Assembly: GCA_030024085.1 (NCBI GenBank)
Contig: JASEJE010000002.1
Location: 124,001-188,000, forward strand
Source of the DNA: Bacillota bacterium
GTDB taxonomy: Bacteria > Bacillota > SHA-98 > UBA4971
Direction of reading: 5' to 3'
DNA length: 64,000 nt
A model generated the notes under the pieces. That model saw only the letters and a list, made by a program, of their open reading frames with translations, was not told the origin of the DNA and ran no database searches. The translations under genes were made by a program, and so were the position numbers. Below, piece after piece: positions 5,103 through 49,885 of this stretch (its first letter is position 1; every line of letters begins with the position of its first letter).

Positions 5103-6155
5103 TCAGTTGCTCCGATGCACGGCGCTTGCCAGGATGCCGGTGAGGATATCCTTTCCCGCGCCGCCCGGAAGGGGGGCAAGGCAGCGCCTTGCCCTGGCGG
5201 CGTACCTCTCGGCGACCTTCGACGCCCGGCCAAGGGCGCCGGACTCTCTCACGATCTCCAGGATCCGCTCGCGCTCTATGATGCGCCCGCGATCCTCCGA
5301 CTGCGATTGCGCGCCGCCGGCTCCGCCGCCCGCGCCGTTCGGCCCCACGAGGAGATCCCGGAGTTCCTCACCCCATCTGTCGCTGCCGAGTGCGTATATC
5401 ACAGGCAGGGTGTACACCCCGCACACGAAATCGTGTCCGGCAGGTTTTCCGGTTGCTGCGCTATCTGCGGAGAGGTCCAGGATGTCATCGACTATCTGGA
5501 ACGCGATACCAAGATGCATGCCGAAGCGACGAAGCGCGTCCGCCGTCGCCCCTGGAGCTTCCGCCGCAATGGCGCCTGCGTAGCAACTGAGCCCGAAGAG
5601 CATGGCGGTCTTCTGGCGTATCCTCCGCAGATACTGCCCGAAACAAACGCTGGTGCTGTGCCTCGCCTCATACTGCTCTATCTCGCCCTCGCAGACCTCC
5701 TGAACGGCCCTGGCCACGGAGGACAGCATGTCCTGGCTCGCGTACCCCGAGAGAATCTGGAAGGCCCGCGTGAAGAGGTAGTCGCCGGTGAAGACGGCGA
5801 CGTCGGCCCCGTACCGCGCGTGAATCGTGCGAACTCCCCTGCGAGTGTCGGCGTCATCGATGATGTCGTCATGAATCAGGGTAGCCATGTGGACTATCTC
5901 GATGGCTGCTGCGATAGGGACCAGGCTGGCAGAGTAACCCCTGCCGAACATCCCGGACGCCAGCACGAGGGCGGGGCGAATGCGCTTTCCGCCCGCTTGC
6001 AAGAGGGACAGCACCGCGTCCGAAATGAGGCTGTGACCGGTGGAGAGTTGCTCTTCGAGGTATGCCTCGACCTTGCCGAGGCCCTCGGCGAGCGCAGGAC
6101 AAGACGACCACCCGGGTATCAAGACTCTCTCCATCTCCCCTCGTGCCGGGCTCAC
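5103..6155 (-). CDS. Polyprenyl (heptaprenyl-type) diphosphate synthase, DmkB-like
   Basis: The 350-residue trans-prenyltransferase makes the isoprenoid tail of menaquinone or demethylmenaquinone. Both Asp-rich motifs are present: LIHDDIIDDADTRRG (first DDxxD type) and FQIVDDILD (second), plus GGKRIRPAL near the N-terminus and KPAGHDF. The GTG at 6155 overlaps the TGA of the upstream gene (GTGA), which suggests translational coupling; ATG 6134 is the alternative. Upstream genes on the same strand are EetB-, EetA- and ApbE-like, matching the dmkB context of the Listeria electron-export locus. The open frame runs much further upstream, but that part is the shadow of the EetB-like gene. Confidence 0.88.
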   Translation of the reverse strand: MSPARGEMERVLIPGWSSCPALAEGLGKVEAYLEEQLSTGHSLISDAVLSLLQAGGKRIRPALVLASGMFGRGYSASLVPIAAAIEIVHMATLIHDDIIDDADTRRGVRTIHARYGADVAVFTGDYLFTRAFQILSGYASQDMLSSVARAVQEVCEGEIEQYEARHSTSVCFGQYLRRIRQKTAMLFGLSCYAGAIAAEAPGATADALRRFGMHLGIAFQIVDDILDLSADSAATGKPAGHDFVCGVYTLPVIYALGSDRWGEELRDLLVGPNGAGGGAGGAQSQSEDRGRIIERERILEIVRESGALGRASKVAERYAARARRCLAPLPGGAGKDILTGILASAVHRSN

Positions 6156-6715
6156 GGCGTCCTCGCGACGTGGCGGACGTCTGCGTTCTCCGGCCACCCG
6201 CCGGCAGCCGATCCCGCGAGGGCTTTCGGCAGAAACCTCAGGATGAACCCGGCGGTGATTCCAACGAAGTACCCTGTGGCGACCCCCGCTACGAGCAGCA
6301 CAGGGAGATAACTGTAGATCTCCATGGTTCCCACGACCACCCCGGCCACGAGAAGTTGACCGATGTTGTGCGATACCGCTCCGAGAACGCTCACACCCAC
6401 GAGGCCGAACACGCGCCCGAGGCGTCTTTGGGCGACCGACATGACTACGGTAGCTAGCAGGCCGCCGACTATGCTGAACGCGAAGCTGGTGAGCGCCCCG
6501 GAGAGGAGCGACCCCAGAAACGTGCGCAGGGCGACCACGACGAGAGCGTCGTATGCGCCGGACAGCACGATCACGATGAGCGTGATTATGTTGGCAAGGC
6601 CGAGCTTGGCCCCGGGAACCATGAATGGCACGGGTATGAAGCTCTCGGTCACGTGGAGCACGAGAGCGAGCGCGACGTATATCGCTATGTGTGTGAGTCT
6701 CCGTGTTCTCGTCAT
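6152..6715 (-). CDS. Gx transporter / Hpre_diP_synt_I family membrane protein (EetB-like)
   Basis: The 187-residue protein is almost entirely hydrophobic, with five or six predicted membrane spans (for example LTHIAIYVALALVLHVTESF and LANIITLIVIVLSGA). The sequence PFMVPGAKLGLANI is typical of the family once annotated as heptaprenyl diphosphate synthase component I. In Listeria the homologous EetB is required for flavin-based extracellular electron transfer. ATG 6715 is preferred (MTRTRR before the first helix); GTG 6733 is possible. It lies between the EetA-like gene (with a repeat element in the gap) and the prenyl synthase, overlapping the latter by four bases. Confidence 0.82.
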   Translation of the reverse strand: MTRTRRLTHIAIYVALALVLHVTESFIPVPFMVPGAKLGLANIITLIVIVLSGAYDALVVVALRTFLGSLLSGALTSFAFSIVGGLLATVVMSVAQRRLGRVFGLVGVSVLGAVSHNIGQLLVAGVVVGTMEIYSYLPVLLVAGVATGYFVGITAGFILRFLPKALAGSAAGGWPENADVRHVARTP

Positions 6716-6815
6716 CCCTCGAGGCACCTGCACGTGCTACTGGAGCCCGCTCCCAGGTGCAGGCCCGGAACTGTCTCCGCTGTGCACGTGCGGGAGACCT
6801 TCTTCCTCCCTGTCC

Positions 6816-7033
6816 CAAGTAGATCGCCACAAGGTCGCGCTGCTTTTCAGCGCGCAAGTCCTGTCCGGGCCGGGGTTGCCGGTATTTGCACTCCGGGGAC
6901 GGCGCGCTTGCGGCGCGCCTCTTTCGAATTTGGCGCTTAAGGCTAGCCAAATTCCAGGCGCCCCGCCCTAGCAAGCACCGGCAACCCCAACACCCTCAGG
7001 AGAAGTGGCGCAAACTTACGGCGCCATACTTAA
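6816..7033 (-). repeat. ~210-bp inverted-repeat element, copy 1
   Basis: This copy lies within the ApbE-EetA-EetB-prenyl synthase operon and runs opposite to the 28181 copy. It begins CAAGTAGATCGCC (one base of the usual CTAAGTA end is lost) and ends at GCGCCATACTTA. Its internal stem GGTTGCCGGT...ACCGGCAACC is intact, as is the second stem TTTGGCGCTTAAGGCTAGCCAAA. The stop codon of the EetA-like gene (7030-7032) is formed by the element end. Confidence 0.9.
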
Positions 7034-7449
7034 TAGGCGATGCCGTCGAGCGTGGGCCCGGGGTCCTGGGGACCGCCCTGGATCCTCACCACTACCCTGT
7101 TGGGCAGGCATACGATGGCTTCGCCCGGGCGTTCGATCCAGCCAGTCCTGACGCACACCTTGTCGGGACAGTCCGAGTCGCTTACCCTCGCGCGGCCGTC
7201 CCCGGCGATCTCGACGACCACGGTGTGGCCGCGGCCCGCGGGCACGTTGACTGTCATGACCCCTGTGACCTGCGAGAATGGAACCGTGCGGAAATGCTTG
7301 CTGTTTACCTCTATTACCACCTTGCGCGCGCCTGCGGCGCCCTGATCGGTGTCCAGGCCGAGGCTTCGCCCCGCCACAAAGACGGCGGCGACGGCGACGA
7401 TGACGATCGCAAGGATGATATCAGCTTTCTTGAGCGTCACTGGCACCAT
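7030..7449 (-). CDS. NusG domain II protein (EetA-like)
   Basis: The 139-residue product has one N-terminal membrane helix (about residues 9-27, IILAIVIVAVAAVFVAG) and an outward-facing NusG_II domain. The domain contains the paired-Cys segment DSDCPDKVCVRTGWI and CLPNRVVVRI, both typical of the family. Homologues are called EetA in the Listeria electron-export locus. It overlaps the 3' end of the ApbE gene by 29 bases, which suggests coupled translation. The TAA stop is built by the end of repeat copy 1, so the last residues (DGIAY) abut the element. Confidence 0.85.
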   Translation of the reverse strand: MVPVTLKKADIILAIVIVAVAAVFVAGRSLGLDTDQGAAGARKVVIEVNSKHFRTVPFSQVTGVMTVNVPAGRGHTVVVEIAGDGRARVSDSDCPDKVCVRTGWIERPGEAIVCLPNRVVVRIQGGPQDPGPTLDGIAY

Positions 7450-8617
7450 AGAACCTGATCGTCCACCCCTTGCTGACTTCTATCACACCTCGCAGGCCTG
7501 GTGACGCCATCACCTGCCGGTCCTGCGTCACGATCACCGCTTGGACCCCTGGAAGTTGCGTGACGAGCCTCATGCCATTGGACGGCCCGAGCAGGAACAC
7601 CGTGGTTGAGAGGGCGTCCGCGTCCACGGCGCGGCGGGCGAGGACCGTCGCGCTCACGATGCCTGTTTCGGCAGGGTAGCCCGTGTCGGGATCGATTATG
7701 TGGTGGTAGCGCGTGCCTGCCTGCTCGAAGAACCGCTCGTAGGTGCCGGACGACACGACGGCCATGTCACGCACCGGCACCACGGCAAAGGTGGCCCCGC
7801 GTTCTTTCCACGGGTTCTGAATCCCGACCCTCCACGGCGAGCCATCAGGCTTCGACCCCAGCACCAGGATGTTCCCGCCGAGGTCGATGAAGGCGCTCTT
7901 CACGCCCTGCTGCAACAGCGCTTCCGCGGCTCTGTCCGCAGCGAAGCCTTTTGCGATGGCGCCGAGGTCGAGGGCCATGCCGGCCCTGCGAAGCCGCACC
8001 GTGCCGCGAGTCTCGTCGATCTCCACGTCCCGGTGATCGACGAGGGACCTCGCTGCGGCCACCTCCTCCGGCGAAGGCACCCTCGCGTGGTTGGTGCCGA
8101 TGCCCCACAGCCGGACGAGCGGGCCTATCGCCATGTCGAACCTCCCGCGGCTGAGGTCCCCGTATCTCCTGGCCTTCTTTACCACATACAGTGTATCGTC
8201 CGCTACCCTCGTTGGCAAGCCTCCCGCCTCGCGGTTCACCGCTGCGACGTCGCTCGTGGCGACGTTCGCGCTCATCAGCGCCTCGACCGCCTCGATGCGG
8301 TCGAAGGCGTCGCTGACCGCTTCCCGGGCCTTGCTGCCGTACGCCCGAATCTGCACGAGGGTCCCAAGGGCGAAGCTTGTGCGCACCGAAACGCCGGGGG
8401 CGCCGCCGGGCCGATTGCAGCCGGCGACCGCGACAACGACGGCTGCGAGCATGAACCAGAACGTAAGCCGGGGTAAGGCCGCGGTCCACCTGTGCGCGCG
8501 GCTCCATCCGCGCGCGTAACGCCCCTTTGCATATCGCGCGGGCGCACCGCCGGGCTTGTGCGTTTCCTTGTGCGTTTCAACGTGCGTGGTTGTGCTCGTG
8601 TTCACATTCACACCCAT
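7421..8617 (-). CDS. apbE: FAD:protein FMN transferase (ApbE family lipoprotein)
   Basis: The 398-residue protein attaches FMN from FAD onto Thr of FMN-binding domains. It has a lipobox (VAVAGC, Cys near residue 67) after a long basic N-terminal tail, so it should be anchored outside the membrane. Family signatures include FALGTLVQIRAYG, the segment RGRFDMAIGPLVRLWG, LDLGAIAKGFAADRA, FIDLGGNILVLG and the metal-site region DADALSTTVFLLG. The likely substrate is the double FMN-binding protein at 2020. It is the first gene of an operon with EetA-, EetB- and prenyl synthase genes, driven by the promoter at 8716-8744. The ribosome site of ATG 8617 is weak, so a start nearer the membrane helix is possible. 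Confidence 0.92.
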   Translation of the reverse strand: MGVNVNTSTTTHVETHKETHKPGGAPARYAKGRYARGWSRAHRWTAALPRLTFWFMLAAVVVAVAGCNRPGGAPGVSVRTSFALGTLVQIRAYGSKAREAVSDAFDRIEAVEALMSANVATSDVAAVNREAGGLPTRVADDTLYVVKKARRYGDLSRGRFDMAIGPLVRLWGIGTNHARVPSPEEVAAARSLVDHRDVEIDETRGTVRLRRAGMALDLGAIAKGFAADRAAEALLQQGVKSAFIDLGGNILVLGSKPDGSPWRVGIQNPWKERGATFAVVPVRDMAVVSSGTYERFFEQAGTRYHHIIDPDTGYPAETGIVSATVLARRAVDADALSTTVFLLGPSNGMRLVTQLPGVQAVIVTQDRQVMASPGLRGVIEVSKGWTIRFYGASDAQES

Positions 8618-44533: not shown

Positions 44534-44644
44534 TCAGCTTGCCTTCGAGCCAAGCGGGATGAAGAAGAACAGGAACATGATGGGTATGAACACGATGACG
44601 AAGATAAGGACTATCCATATTATCGTAAAGAACTCCTGGGTCAT
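44534..44644 (-). CDS. Tiny single-helix membrane protein (36 aa), family member 1
   Basis: A short frame starts at ATG 44644 with AGGGAGGT 8 bases upstream and ends at TGA 44534. The product starts MTQEFFTIIW, continues with a long hydrophobic segment containing IFVIVFIPIMFLFFFIP, and ends LGSKAS. It shares the start MTQE, the Pro near residue 21 and the final (W/G)SK motif with the two proteins at 46893 and 47134. The conserved start region and good ribosome site argue that it is real. It resembles small sporulation-type membrane peptides in size and pattern only; function is unknown. Confidence 0.75.
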   Translation of the reverse strand: MTQEFFTIIWIVLIFVIVFIPIMFLFFFIPLGSKAS

Positions 44645-44697
44645 CTAGGATACCTCCCTTCGAAGTCGGACGCCTCGCGCCCCCCGGTCCCGGGTGG

Positions 44698-45450
44698 CTA
44701 ATCGATAGGCATTGCCGTGTCCGGGTCCGCGTCCTTGAGGAACTGAGTGAGCATGCCTGCAACGAACCTCTGGAACTGCGGCGTCTTCGCGAGCTCGAGG
44801 AGGAGCGTGAGAGAGCCGCCAGGGATGGGCAGCGACCCAGCCTCCCGGACTCCAGCACTTTCAGCCAGCGATGCCTTGACCATGGCGCTGATCTGCGCGA
44901 GCGCCCCTGCTGCCTCATCGGCCAGCTTGATAGACGACTGGACCTTGTCGAGCGTGCTGTTCACGCTGCCGTCCGCGATGGCCCCGCGAAGCACCACTTT
45001 CGCACGAGAGATCAGGTTTGGACGCGACGCCGGCGCTGTCTCCTTTCCGATGTCGCTGGGCTTCGCCTCGTTGCCGGGAGCGCCATCCCCGTTCCCGGCC
45101 GGGGCGTTCCCACCCGGGGTCGGCTCGACCGCCGGGCCGTTTTGACGGTGCTGGTGAGCCCCGCGCGCCGTCTCCCTGTTCTGGATGGCGGCCCTCATGA
45201 AGCCTCCAGACGCGGCAACACGTCCTCTCTCGGCCCCTCTCTCAACCGGGGGCGCCGCTGATGTCGTCTCCTCGCCGCCCGGTGCACAGGAGGATTCGAC
45301 GGCATCAAGCCTGGATGAGACCTTTTCGTATGACTCCTCGAGTCGCCGAAGGCTCCGTTCGAGCCGTTGCAGCACCTGGTTTTGCTGCACTACGGCTTCC
45401 TGCAGCATCTGCATTTCTCGACGGGAATCCCTCGTATCCTGAACCTCCAT
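44698..45450 (-). CDS. Coiled-coil protein of unknown function
   Basis: The 250-residue product has an N-terminal coiled coil (about residues 10-50, MLQEAVVQQNQVLQRLERSLRRLEESYEKV split by heptads), a low-complexity Gly/Pro/Ala middle (about 55-145) and a conserved-looking C-terminal region (about 150-250) with LLLELAKTPQFQRFVAGMLTQFLKD. No signal peptide or membrane helix is present. It lies 53 bases upstream of tiny membrane protein 1 on the same strand and diverges from the 45686 gene. I do not recognise the family. Confidence 0.7.
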   Translation of the reverse strand: MEVQDTRDSRREMQMLQEAVVQQNQVLQRLERSLRRLEESYEKVSSRLDAVESSCAPGGEETTSAAPPVERGAERGRVAASGGFMRAAIQNRETARGAHQHRQNGPAVEPTPGGNAPAGNGDGAPGNEAKPSDIGKETAPASRPNLISRAKVVLRGAIADGSVNSTLDKVQSSIKLADEAAGALAQISAMVKASLAESAGVREAGSLPIPGGSLTLLLELAKTPQFQRFVAGMLTQFLKDADPDTAMPID

Positions 45451-45685
45451 AGAAAACCACCCCGCTGCCTACCTGCGCCCTGGGAGTCGCGTTGTCAGTC
45501 GGCATTACATTATATGAGCCTCCGTCCGGAGTGTGTGCGAAGCCACGGGCGCTTGGAAGATGCGGCTGTACCCGCACCAAGGTGCGTCCATATGAATAGA
45601 ATCTATCAGCACAGGGCAGCGTCCCTGCACGACTCATTCGGTGCAGGCCGGCGGACCAGCACCGGGAAGGTGGGGTATCACGTAC

Positions 45686-46054
45686 ATGACAGGCGGAATG
45701 GACGAACTCGCTTCCGAAATCCGTAAGAAGCTGGAACATAACGAAGGGGGGGCTATCGCGGGGATCCTGCATGACATGGGAGTCTCCCTGGATGACCCGG
45801 ACCGGATCAAGGGACTTCTCGGGGGGCTCGGATACGGCGATTCCCAGCTCTTTGACCCGGCACAACTCGTGAAGATCGCCGAGAGCTTCCTCGCGTCTAT
45901 GCCCGAGGAGACCAGACGCCAGCTTCTCGGCGTCGTATTCCAGGTGGCTGCCGACATGGGTCCGGGGAACGTGCCGAAAGAGATCCTGGGGGCACTATCG
46001 TCCGCCTCGACCAAGGATGGCGCGGATACCTCACCCGGCGAACACCAGGGTTAG
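45686..46054 (+). CDS. Helical protein of unknown function (122 aa)
   Basis: The product (MTGGMDELASEIRKKLEHNE...) is soluble and rich in helices, with LLGGLGYGDSQLFDPAQLV and MPEETRRQLLGVVFQVAADMG. The latter segment loosely echoes the C-terminal helix of the divergent coiled-coil protein. ATG 45686 is preferred although its ribosome site (GGAAGGTGGGG) is distant; ATG 45698 is possible. The divergent pair suggests a shared process. Function unknown. Confidence 0.65.
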   Translation: MTGGMDELASEIRKKLEHNEGGAIAGILHDMGVSLDDPDRIKGLLGGLGYGDSQLFDPAQLVKIAESFLASMPEETRRQLLGVVFQVAADMGPGNVPKEILGALSSASTKDGADTSPGEHQG

Positions 46055-46254
46055 GCACCAGATCAGGGAATCCTGCGGCCTATGGGCCGTCGGGCATCTT
46101 CTGCGGTTTCACGTGATCGTGCAGGCCGCGCGCACCGGACCTGGTGCCGACGACGCCCGTAGATGCTGCGGAGTCCCTGGGGTTTTCACTCAAAGCAGGC
46201 AACCGGGGTGGGGCATCCCGGGAGGCGGTCGCCTTTGAGGGGGGTGACCATGAG

Positions 46255-46458
46255 ATGCTCTTCGGCAGACTACGGGGGAAGATCGCTGAGCAGACGAGCC
46301 TGGACAGGATCATCGACGTGCTCGACCTTCTAGGTAGCATATTCTTTTTGATAGCCGCGATCCTCGCCTTTTTCGTTCCGCGGCCCGCTCCTTCTCCGCC
46401 CCCCGTATCCGGCAGTGGCCCGCGATTGCCGACGGATCGGGCACTGGACAGGAGGTGA
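46255..46458 (+). CDS. Small membrane protein (67 aa)
   Basis: ATG 46255 follows GAGGGGGG by about 9 bases. The product begins MLFGRLRGKIAEQTSLDRII, has one hydrophobic segment (LLGSIFFLIAAILAFFV, about residues 26-42) and a Pro/Ser-rich tail. It lies just before truncated repeat copy 7 and upstream of the tiny membrane protein genes. I know no family for it. Confidence 0.55.
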   Translation: MLFGRLRGKIAEQTSLDRIIDVLDLLGSIFFLIAAILAFFVPRPAPSPPPVSGSGPRLPTDRALDRR

Positions 46459-46490
46459 TGGCGCCGGCAGTGGAGACGGCGATAGTGACA

Positions 46491-46627
46491 GGCGCGGCGC
46501 GCTCGCGGCGCGCCTCGTTCGAATTTGGCACACGGGCCAGCCAAATTCTCGACGCCCCGCCCTAGCAAGCACCGGCAACCCTAACACCCTCAAGAAAAGT
46601 GGCGCAGACTCATGGCGCCATACTTAG
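46491..46627 (-). repeat. Truncated inverted-repeat element, copy 7
   Basis: Only the right two thirds of the element are present, from GGCGCGGCGCGC through the stems to GGCGCCATACTTAG; the end with CTAAGTAGATC and the GTTGCCGGTGTTG arm is missing. The gap 46628-46892 after it holds no gene. Confidence 0.85.
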
Positions 46628-46892
46628 AACCCGCCAGGGACCGCGATGCCGCGCCGGATCGGCCAGTAGAGGCAGAGCGCAGCGCGGGGCATTCCTGAAC
46701 GTAAGGTCCGATAGCGGTGACGGGGCGGCCAGTGACGCAGAAAGCAAGGAGCAAACCGGCGCAGCGCCCCATATTATAGTAGCGAGGCAGGCGCCATCCG
46801 AGGTATCACCCGTAGCCAAAGGGGCTGCACGACAGAACTTCGAGAGGTCCTTCAGGCGCCTCTGCGCACGGAAATGAAGGGAGGTATGACAG

Positions 46893-47000
46893 GTGACGCA
46901 AGAGATCGAGTTCTGGTGGATAATCATACTGCTCTTCGTCTTGCTGGTTCCGATGTTCATTATCATCTTCCCGATCTTCCCGTGGAGCAAGAAGGCCTGA
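46893..47000 (+). CDS. Tiny single-helix membrane protein (35 aa), family member 2
   Basis: GTG 46893 lies 8 bases after GGGAGGT. The product opens MTQEIEFWWIIILLFVLLVP and ends PWSKKA. Its nucleotide sequence is nearly identical to member 3, with differences mostly at silent or conservative positions, so selection acts on the protein. The Trp-Trp pair at the membrane edge is conserved in members 2-4. Single membrane segment, short charged ends; likely a structural or regulatory membrane peptide. Confidence 0.8.
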   Translation: MTQEIEFWWIIILLFVLLVPMFIIIFPIFPWSKKA

Positions 47001-47133
47001 TTTCATCAAGGCCTCCATGCGGGGAGGCAGGGCAGTGGAGGTGTCCGGCGGTCCGTTCGGGTCGGCCGATTTGAAACGGTCTACCCCAGGACGGCGCCGG
47101 ACCCCATGACAGACCAGGAAAGGAGGTCTTCGT

Positions 47134-47241
47134 ATGACCCAGGAGATCGAGTTCTGGTGGATAATCATACTGCTCTTCGTCTTGCTCGTCCCGATGTTCC
47201 TGATCATCTTCCCGATCTTCCCATGGAGCAAGAACGCGTAG
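47134..47241 (+). CDS. Tiny single-helix membrane protein (35 aa), family member 3
   Basis: ATG 47134 follows AGGAGG by 8 bases. It opens MTQEIEFWWIIILLFVLLVP and ends PWSKNA; only a few residues differ from member 2. The two are a recent tandem duplication, each with its own ribosome site. Confidence 0.82.
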   Translation: MTQEIEFWWIIILLFVLLVPMFLIIFPIFPWSKNA

Positions 47242-47288
47242 CGCGCGCGGCGGGTGGGTGAAGTCAGGCAGACGGGGAGGAGCAAAAG

Positions 47289-47402
47289 GTGGTACAGCAA
47301 CTCGAACACTGGTGGCTCATCATATTCCTGTTCGTTCTGTTGCTGCCGCAGCTCGTCGCGTTCTCTACGGCGCTCGCCGCGAGCTACGCCTGGGGAGCAT
47401 GA
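47289..47402 (+). CDS. Tiny single-helix membrane protein (37 aa), family member 4
   Basis: GTG 47289 follows GGGGAGGAG. The product begins MVQQLEHWWLIIFLFVLLLP, matching members 2 and 3 at Q3, E6, W8, W9 and the LFVLL-P core, but its C-terminal part (AFSTALAASYAWGA) has diverged. It ends 166 bases before the S8 peptidase gene. Confidence 0.72.
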   Translation: MVQQLEHWWLIIFLFVLLLPQLVAFSTALAASYAWGA

Positions 47403-47428
47403 TCTGGCTACCAACTCACAGCCTCCTC

Positions 47429-47468
47429 GCAGAAGGGCCTTCGGCCTTCACGGCCGGGGCCCTTCTGC
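47429..47468 (+). terminator. Hairpin between the tiny membrane protein genes and the S8 peptidase gene
   Basis: Arms GCAGAAGGGCC and GGCCCTTCTGC pair perfectly around an 18-base GC-rich loop. No T tract follows. It could terminate or attenuate the small-protein transcript. Confidence 0.5.
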
Positions 47469-47568
47469 GCGATGTGAATGGTGCGCGGGACGTCCCCACT
47501 CACCGCCCCTGGAGTTCAGGAATATCATTTATCGTCACGGAAGTTCGCCATGAAGGAGGACCTGGCAC

Positions 47569-48741
47569 ATGCTTCCGACTTACGTCGTCTACATTATGGC
47601 ACTTGCCGCCCTCGCGCGCAGATCGCGCCAGGGTGCCGGGCCCCGGCCGGTCCGAAAGATCATCCTGTTTGAGCCTGGCGTGGACCCTGACCGGGTCCGC
47701 TCCATCGTGGAGGAATGTGGAGGGAAGCTCAGGAAATCGCTCCCGATCGTCAACGGAGTGGCCTGCGTGCTTCCCAAGGAAGCCACGGCCATGAGCCTTC
47801 TTTCGCGCGCTGGCGAGGTGGCGTGGGTTGAAGACGACTTCATCATTTCCATATCGACCGCCTGTTTCTTCGTTCTCAGGCCGCGCCCCCGACCCCGGAA
47901 GCAGAGTATGCCGTGGGGAATCACGAAGGTGAAGGCCCCGGAGGCATGGGGGAGCGCCACCGGGAAAGGTGTGCGGGTAGCCGTGCTCGACACGGGCATA
48001 GACATGACCCACCCCGACATCAGGGCGAACATCGCGGGCGGGTTCGACTGCATCAACGAGACCACCAACGTGGTTGACGACAATGGCCACGGCACCCACG
48101 TGGCGGGCACCATCGCGGCCCTCGACGACGACTTCGGGGTCGTGGGTGTGGCCCCCGAAGCGAGGCTCTATGCCGTGAAGGCTTTCGGTTCGGGGGGTCA
48201 GGGGCAGGTGTCCGACATCGTGCAGGGCATGGAATGGTGTATCGCAAACCGCGTGCAGATCATCAACATGAGCTTCGGGACTGTCGATTCCAGCAAGGCT
48301 CTCACCATGGCCATCGAGAAGGCGGCCCAGGCGGGCATTGTCATGGTCGCCGCGGCCGGCAACGACGGCAGACGTGACGGCGTGCTCTACCCTGCCCGCG
48401 ATCCCAACGTCATTGCCGTGGCGGCGTCAACACGCGACGACCGTATAGCCTCGTTCAGCAATTCGGGCGGGCAGGTGGCTATTGCCGCTCCGGGGGAAGA
48501 CATCTATTCGACTTACAGGGACGGCGGTTACAAGAGCTTGACCGGCACATCGATGGCCTGCCCTCACGTTACAGGAGTTGCCGCATTGCTTCTTTCAGTC
48601 TCGCCTGGCCTCGCCAGGGACGACGTGCGAGAGATCGTGTGCGGGACAGCCACGAAGCTGTCAGGGTTTTCCCCGGACCAGCAGGGGTCGGGCGTTGTGA
48701 ACGCCGGGGCGGCTGTTGCGCGTGTGCGGCTGTCCGCGTAA
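47569..48741 (+). CDS. Subtilisin-like (S8) serine peptidase
   Basis: The 390-residue protein has a propeptide-like N-terminal region (KIILFEPGVDPDRVRSIVEE...WVEDDF) and a catalytic domain with the triad Asp141 (VAVLDTGIDMTHPD), His174 (NGHGTHVAGT) and Ser328 (GTSMACPHVTGVAAL). The oxyanion region AAAGNDG is present. The N-terminus is weakly hydrophobic (YVVYIMALAALA) before a basic stretch, so export is uncertain. The ATG follows AAGGAGGA. It lies in a block with tiny membrane proteins and a second peptidase, which suggests envelope or spore processing. Confidence 0.92.
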   Translation: MLPTYVVYIMALAALARRSRQGAGPRPVRKIILFEPGVDPDRVRSIVEECGGKLRKSLPIVNGVACVLPKEATAMSLLSRAGEVAWVEDDFIISISTACFFVLRPRPRPRKQSMPWGITKVKAPEAWGSATGKGVRVAVLDTGIDMTHPDIRANIAGGFDCINETTNVVDDNGHGTHVAGTIAALDDDFGVVGVAPEARLYAVKAFGSGGQGQVSDIVQGMEWCIANRVQIINMSFGTVDSSKALTMAIEKAAQAGIVMVAAAGNDGRRDGVLYPARDPNVIAVAASTRDDRIASFSNSGGQVAIAAPGEDIYSTYRDGGYKSLTGTSMACPHVTGVAALLLSVSPGLARDDVREIVCGTATKLSGFSPDQQGSGVVNAGAAVARVRLSA

Positions 48742-48802
48742 GAGAGCCGGGCCCGTGTTTTCATGTCCGGATGCATCCCGATGCATGACGAGGTGATCCG
48801 GT

Positions 48803-49885
48803 ATGGCCGACATGTCCCGTGTCCTCGAGGATGCGAGGTGGAGGCTGATGGGCCTGCCGAACGTGGTGGGCGTCGGGCGCGGGTACAAGGCTACGGCAGG
48901 CGTCCGTGGCTCCACTGAGTGTATCGTGGTGTTGGTGAAGAAGAAGTTCCCGGGAGCCGTCCTCGGGACCCAGGCGACGGTCCCCGCCGAGGTACGTGGG
49001 GTCCCCACTGACGTGGTGGAGGTCGGGGAGATACGATTCCTCGACACCGGTGCGGAAGGCATGGACGACGCAGCAACCGGCACGGCCGGTCCGACCAAGC
49101 GGACTCGCAGGCAAGAGCGGATGCGGCCGGCAAGGCCAGGTGCGAGCATCGGGCACTACCAGGTCACGGCGGGTACAATGGGCGCGGTCGTGTGGGACAG
49201 AAGGACCCGCGAGCCTCTCATCCTATCGTGCAATCACGTGCTTGCCAACGCCACCTCGGGCCGCGACGGCCGGGCGAAAGTGGGCGACCCCATCGTCCAG
49301 CCGGGCGCGGCCGATGGAGGGACCGTCGAACGTGACCAGATCGGCGTTCTTGAAAGGTTCGTTCCTATCCGGATGTCGGGGCGAGTGCCCGCGTGCATGG
49401 CGTCCAGGGTCGCGGAGAGGGTCTTCAACAACTGGCTGCGCATCACCGGTGCGCCGGCCCGGGTGGAGATGGTCACGGTATACTTCCCCCTGGCAGTGAA
49501 CACCGTTGACGCGGCGCTGGCCCGTCCCTTGCACCCGGAATCCATTGAACCCGGGATCCTCGAACTCGGCGAGTTACTGGGAACGGCCGAACCGGAACTG
49601 GGCATGCCGGTGAGAAAGAGCGGGCGGACCACCGGGGTGACCGCCGGTGAGATAACATCTGTCGATACGACTGTGAGCGTGGTGTATTCGGGCAACACCA
49701 CTGCGACGTTCAAGGACCAGATCATGACGGGGGTCATGGCCGACGGGGGCGACTCGGGGTCGGTTCTCGTTGATGAGAATATGCGCGCGGTGGGGCTTCT
49801 ATTCGCTGGGTCCGACAAGTCCACGCTGTACAACAAGATGACCAGCGTGATGGACGCGGTCGGCGTGACCCTCGAACGCCCGTGA
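48803..49885 (+). CDS. Trypsin-like (S1-fold) serine peptidase-like protein
   Basis: The 360-residue protein contains a nucleophile motif DGGDSGSVLV (Ser about 318) and a catalytic-His motif LSCNHVLAN (His about 145), plus GMPVRKSGRTTGVTAGEI, typical of a chymotrypsin-fold family found in many bacteria without signal peptides. The N-terminal part (LPNVVGVGRGYKATAGVRG, VVLVKKKFPGA) is also characteristic. No export signal is seen. It follows the S8 peptidase gene by about 60 bases and is likely co-transcribed. Confidence 0.82.
   Translation: MADMSRVLEDARWRLMGLPNVVGVGRGYKATAGVRGSTECIVVLVKKKFPGAVLGTQATVPAEVRGVPTDVVEVGEIRFLDTGAEGMDDAATGTAGPTKRTRRQERMRPARPGASIGHYQVTAGTMGAVVWDRRTREPLILSCNHVLANATSGRDGRAKVGDPIVQPGAADGGTVERDQIGVLERFVPIRMSGRVPACMASRVAERVFNNWLRITGAPARVEMVTVYFPLAVNTVDAALARPLHPESIEPGILELGELLGTAEPELGMPVRKSGRTTGVTAGEITSVDTTVSVVYSGNTTATFKDQIMTGVMADGGDSGSVLVDENMRAVGLLFAGSDKSTLYNKMTSVMDAVGVTLERP

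Follow-up and report, generated by a model that had tools for sequence, protein, structure and literature searches.

Most of what is known about the maturation of the spore coat comes from Bacillus and a few species of Clostridium. Here we describe a locus of tiny membrane proteins, helical proteins and peptidases at positions 44,534 to 49,885 of a 64,000-nucleotide stretch of DNA (hereafter the window) from a Bacillota bacterium of the lineage SHA-98; UBA4971 (assembly GCA_030024085.1, contig JASEJE010000002.1, positions 124,001 to 188,000). By comparison with 249 genomes of the phylum, whose families are coded f15, f23, f30 and so on, we show that four tiny one-helix membrane proteins (tinies), a 122-residue helical protein (hel122), a coiled-coil protein (CC250) and a subtilase of peptidase family S8 form one real module and not a chance cluster. 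Its role probably lies in sporulation, late in the mother cell, with a membrane-tethered pro-subtilase and the tinies acting at the surface of the forespore. Such a module is apparently undescribed so far, as no description was found in the open literature, subscription papers and supplements lying outside the search.

Several described systems share some of its features. Members of the YjcZ family of Bacillus (Tiny_TM_bacill) have a glycine-rich N-terminus. Like the tinies, they are very short proteins with one hydrophobic helix, found in spore formers, and yjcZ belongs to the sigma-K regulon (PMC517825). By contrast, the window tinies (35-37 residues, with a single hydrophobic helix) combine a W-rich start with an acidic N-terminus, and none of the four matched YjcZ/Tiny_TM_bacill (Pfam and NCBIfam, E up to 1); nor did three tinies of other loci (Pfam, E up to 5). 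A fifth tiny of the source genome, of 44 residues, does have a Gly-rich stretch, followed by WWW, before its helix; it lies near smpB, outside the window (L004 1450-1584, G000:C22 from about 89773), and has a relative in G002:C42.

Among proteases, the Csp germination proteases of clostridia (CspB, CspA and CspC) are S8 subtilases produced in the mother cell, and the csp operon of C. difficile is sigma-E dependent (PMC3789822). The S8 enzyme described here differs from them in its N-terminal helix, its sigma-K-type promoter and its partners, and it scores far below the cut-offs of the NCBIfam Csp models (52.3 against 1250 bits for CspBA, 40.8 against 675 for CspC). Secreted subtilisins such as pro-subtilisin E (3whi), the top PDB hit of S8 by both sequence search and Foldseek, also join an I9-like pro-domain to a catalytic domain, but in S8 the signal peptide is replaced by a helix with positive residues only after it, and the genome context differs. 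YabG belongs to a different protease family. It is alike in role only, processing coat proteins under sigma-K control (PMC3789822).

Gene content and linkage

The locus consists of nine small genes between korC-sucC-sucD and plsY (flanking genes named from their translations). The initial annotation, made from the window's sequence, had listed tiny, coiled-coil, helical, membrane, S8 and S1 genes between metabolic genes, and every one was found where it had been placed:

44534-44644, minus strand: tinyA, a 36-residue one-helix membrane protein
44698-45450, minus strand: CC250, with an N-terminal coiled coil, a variable linker and a conserved C-terminal helical part carrying the motif LAKTPQFQRF
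45506-45535, minus strand: sigma-K-type promoter-like site for CC250-tinyA
45575-45605, plus strand: sigma-K-type promoter-like site for hel122
45686-46054, plus strand: hel122, a 122-residue helical protein
46255-46458, plus strand: TM67, a 67-residue one-helix protein, weakly YrhK-like (below cut-off)
46770-46781, plus strand: conserved -10-like element CATATTATAGTA upstream of tinyB
46893-47000, plus strand: tinyB, a 35-residue one-helix membrane protein with a GTG start
47134-47241, plus strand: tinyC, 35 residues, a near copy of tinyB
47289-47402, plus strand: tinyD, 37 residues, a diverged copy with a GTG start
47501-47531, plus strand: sigma-K-type promoter-like site for S8
47569-48741, plus strand: S8 pro-subtilase, with an N-terminal helix, an I9-like pro-domain and a catalytic domain
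48803-49885, plus strand: S1-like peptidase with a NAL1-like N-terminus, adjacent to the block

Block genes were located by tblastn in the close relatives, all uncultured Bacillota known from metagenome-assembled genomes (five of the same genus, G001-G005; seven of a sister genus, G006-G012; 13 genomes make up the family). In all five same-genus genomes the block keeps its order, its strands and its metabolic flanking genes, apart from minor losses (hel122 and TM67 in G002, one tiny in G004). The block is also present in four of the seven sister-genus genomes (G007, G009, G010 and G011). tinyA was detected in G001-G004; in G005 and the sister-genus genomes tblastn did not find it. TM67, seen in one of the five same-genus genomes (G001) and four of the sister genus, with relatives in loci L099, L116 and L199, is loosely conserved and the weakest member.

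Across the phylum, a CC250 profile matches 25/249 genomes and a broad hel122 profile 30/249. With G057 (hel122, E 8e-4) and G072 (CC250, E 1e-3) excluded as marginal, hel122 remains in 29 genomes and CC250 in 24. The two share 21 of these, where 2.8 would be expected (p 4.6e-21, uncorrected for kinship), and outside their own family they share 16, where the expectation is 1.8. Kinship among the genomes makes all p-values given here too small, and the linkage argument relies instead on multiple families with differing gene orders. In distant neighbourhoods, interpreted with a simple gene caller, module parts cluster anew in f15, f23, f30, f39 and f92, in different orders and on different strands: f39 has CC250 opposite S8-hel122; f92 has TM67-hel122, a tiny, S8 and CC250-tiny; f15 has S8, two tinies and hel122, with CC250 a few kb off or elsewhere; f23 has tiny-CC250 opposite hel122 and another tiny; and three of the f30 loci that were read have tinies adjoining hel122. 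In 20 of 33 hel122 loci, by our reading, an S8 gene is found no more than about 8 kb from hel122. An S8 with both anchor and pro-domain occurs at E <1e-30 in 16/249 genomes, and all 16 carry the module (chance 9e-17); the next-best match (4.5e-18, in G230) is to an S8 that also sits beside a tiny, and further matches are mostly to the pro-domain alone.

More weakly matching S8 proteins in f37 and f62 have two neighbours, one helical (about 105 residues) and one coiled-coil (about 215). Compared by hhalign profile, the former matches hel122 at 90.6%, and the latter matches CC250 weakly (42.9%), over the C-terminal motif K[TS]PxFQ. A DUF3870 gene is found near this trio in the f62 loci L239, L240 and L243 (tested in L239).

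It is improbable that these are merely neighbouring accessory spore genes which share a regulon and no common machine. In favour of such loose co-location, order and strand vary, the f23 and f30 loci contain no linked S8, CC250 and hel122 lie on separate contigs in f30, and TM67 is often missing; against it, the anchored S8 occurs solely in genomes with the module (16 of 16) and the same gene types come together again in several families. The proposal of the initial annotation that all the genes form a common system, to be abandoned if they scatter independently in related genomes, thus holds for the tinies, hel122, CC250 and S8, which stay linked, and fails for S1, which scatters.

The tinies have hardly any residues beyond one membrane helix. 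Because strong ribosome-binding sites precede them throughout related genomes, and because they are under purifying selection (pS 0.20-0.46, pN 0.07-0.19; pN/pS about 0.2 to 0.55), we regard them as real genes, not chance open frames. A detector for open reading frames (ORFs) of 26-50 residues with one helix and a strong ribosome site, its thresholds fixed after the tinies had been seen, gave no hit in 193,959 bases of background, whereas 19/33 hel122 loci had one or more such ORFs within 3.5 kb of hel122. A profile search of the 249 genomes gave 35 tiny matches at E up to 0.1, mostly low-scoring fragments, so tinies in distant loci were assessed by linkage. The proteins of tinies B, C and D (46893-47402) are identical between the window and G002 (L048), where S1 identity is about 71-74%.

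No Pfam or NCBIfam family matched the window tinies, hel122 or CC250 above cut-off, and Pfam scans of distant hel122, CC250 and tiny sequences gave weak, scattered matches below cut-off; the one exception was a 38-residue tiny of locus L115, slightly above the OapA_N cut-off. In that locus (5425-8008; G138, f77) a CC250-like gene ends a series of small helical proteins and tiny membrane proteins, which is possibly another form of the module. The AlphaFold model of hel122 (pLDDT 53.5) was too poor for a fold search.

Sigma-K-type promoters and sporulation sigma factors

At -35, sigma-K promoters carry AC and sigma-E promoters ATA (PMC3789822), and the sigma-K promoter gap spans 14-16 bases (PMC517825). 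Alignment of intergenic regions across the genus revealed conserved blocks of the form CAC-N16/17-[CA]ATANNATNTA upstream of CC250, hel122 and S8, and CATATKATA upstream of tinyB; in the source genome the -10 elements of S8 and hel122 read AATA rather than CATA. The sigma-K-regulon pattern (AC -35, CATA-type -10, spacing 15-17) was found upstream of CC250, hel122 and S8, and not of tinyB, for which the same promoter was rejected since its upstream region in the source genome lacks an AC -35 at a suitable distance.

Genome-wide the pattern occurs at six sites, three of them in the locus, against 0 and 1 for reversed-pattern controls. The other three precede an AAA+lid gene that we read as spoVK-like (spoVK has a sigma-K promoter, P2; PMC517825), lie between SipL/SPOCS genes, and fall on contig C63 near no sensible gene, respectively. 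Two SipL/SPOCS genes of the spore coat type flank a sigma-K-like site, together with a small hydrophobic ORF, at L120 1501-1531 (G000:C12:48706-48736).

Similar sites recur in distant families, where ACC-N16-CATATGCTA precedes the f15 tinies and ACC-N16-AATAATGTA the f39 S8. Sites of the form AC-N15-17-[CA]ATA..TA precede 44 of 82 module starts and 4 of 303 non-module genes in those loci (shuffles: mean 2.6, maximum 9), a contrast weakened by the loosening of the pattern after the module promoters had been seen and by the non-independence of related genomes. Outside the source family the count is 18/43, and the stricter literature form, AC-N15-17-CATANNNTA, is found at 8/82 module starts and 1/303 others. 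The spoIVA promoter region of the genus instead has a conserved GGTAATAAT before CATATACATT, matching the need of sigma-E.

The source genome has a sigma-K gene that scores above cut-off. As the sigma-K model matches some sigma gene in all 249 genomes, presence was scored by match strength: among the 215 genomes whose sporulation-sigma match was good, 31 carry the module, against 1 of the other 34 (p 0.045). These 34 were classed as asporogenous by a weak best score (about 1e-14 to 1e-21, one 3e-8), G180, G225 and G249, which are borderline, being grouped with the rest. In f15, Coat_F genes (PF07875) adjoin CC250 or hel122. Envelope, spore and signalling roles had all been offered for the locus at the outset; the sigma-K-type promoters, the Coat_F neighbours and the sporulation-sigma association lend support to the spore, and from them we infer strongly that the module is linked to it, while nothing found here supports the tinies as signalling peptides or substrates.

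The S8 protease

S8 is a clear member of Pfam Peptidase_S8 (2.9e-62, 211 bits against a cut-off of 21.8). It has the D, H and S of the triad at D141, H174 and S328, which we take to be the catalytic residues and which align in 11 homologues. It falls short of the model for type VII secretion system mycosins (TIGR03921; 190.9 against 278.75 bits). In the AlphaFold model (mean pLDDT 59) an N-terminal helix spans residues 4-20 and the catalytic domain begins at about residue 112; between them, at about 29-94, a modelled beta-alpha-beta-beta-alpha-beta fold (pLDDT mostly >80) resembles an I9 pro-domain, although a Pfam scan gave no separate I9 match.

The N-terminal helix is preceded by no positive residue and followed by a charge of +2 to +8 within 15 residues in 13/13 aligned homologues, none of which has a Sec signal peptide with a positive N-region; the early remark that S8 lacks a clear export signal was thus borne out by a hydrophobic N-terminus with no positive residue before it. 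This charge pattern predicts an N-out, C-in topology and hence a catalytic domain in the cytoplasm, which would remain tethered until the pro-domain junction is cut.

The S1 peptidase

Resemblance of S1 to the NAL1-type trypsin-like peptidases lies in weak matches to NAL1_N and Trypsin_2, both below cut-off (Trypsin_2: 24.3 against 27.6 bits), and in H, D and S motifs at H145, D236 and S318, presumably the catalytic residues; the literature covered yielded no bacterial function for peptidases of this type. S1 is beside the block in all five same-genus relatives, but it stays by sucD in G006 and G012, which have no block, and for that reason we exclude it from the module and consider it probably an independent neighbour. 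It occurs in 31 of 61 genomes and hel122 in 12 of those 61, and the single further link to the module is an S1 NAL1-like gene beside CC250 in G155 (L111 7785-9720).

Discussion

In the mechanism that we propose, once the forespore has been engulfed, sigma-K RNA polymerase in the mother cell would transcribe CC250-tinyA in one direction and hel122, the tinies and S8 in the other. Both the S8 anchor and the tinies would insert into either the outer forespore membrane or that of the mother cell, their N-termini facing out and their C-termini reaching into the mother-cell cytoplasm, the site of coat building. There the I9-like pro-domain may keep the membrane-bound S8 as a zymogen, until self-cleavage before about residue 112 releases the catalytic domain from anchor and pro-domain; the released enzyme could then trim coat or cortex-related proteins, with hel122 and CC250 as soluble coat-side partners or adaptors. 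Such a tethered-zymogen mechanism is plausible.

A number of observations weigh against a sporulation module of this kind. In G006 and G012, sucD and S1 adjoin and the block between them is missing, and tblastn gave no block hit in G008, yet all 13 genomes of the family, these three included, have SpoIVA; the block is therefore accessory, not core. Nor does its loss track a loss of sporulation, since SpoIVA is kept in the three genomes, and this comparison lends the spore reading no support. By best E, sigma-K matches do not come near cut-off in nine of the 32 module genomes, G203 has hel122 and no good spore sigma, and Thermosediminibacter oceani (G052) carries S8, hel122 and CC250, while sporulation was not observed according to its paper. 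The anchor helix is absent from the S8 of G093 and f62, and the available text of the M. thermoacetica spore proteome study (PMC8745062) does not list the S8 protease.

It is also rather unlikely that the genes serve late mother-cell lysis or membrane remodelling, with holin- or toxin-like tinies and an S8 that degrades mother-cell proteins. The late mother-cell promoter type, the several copies of strongly hydrophobic tinies and the predicted cytoplasm-facing S8 zymogen would all suit this alternative, but a Pfam scan found no lysis domain in the block, and hel122 and CC250 would have no obvious role in it. Least probable is envelope or peptide-signalling processing outside sporulation, in which the peptidases cut the tinies to release signals: a protease does adjoin several tiny hydrophobic ORFs and S1 is adjacent throughout the genus, but tinies made almost entirely of one membrane helix, a catalytic domain predicted to be cytoplasmic, the sigma-K-type promoters, the parting of S1 from the block and several hel122-tiny loci with no nearby S8 all speak against it.

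A late mother-cell module at the forespore surface thus remains our preferred explanation. More tentatively, it may represent an undescribed spore-surface machine of deeper spore-forming Bacillota, in which a sigma-K-controlled, inside-facing tethered pro-subtilase in the outer forespore membrane, set among tiny W-rich one-helix proteins and two unnamed helical adaptor families, would contribute to coat maturation through self-cleavage of its pro-domain. The tiny proteins of the block, backed here by linkage, selection and promoters, are of a kind that standard annotation may miss.

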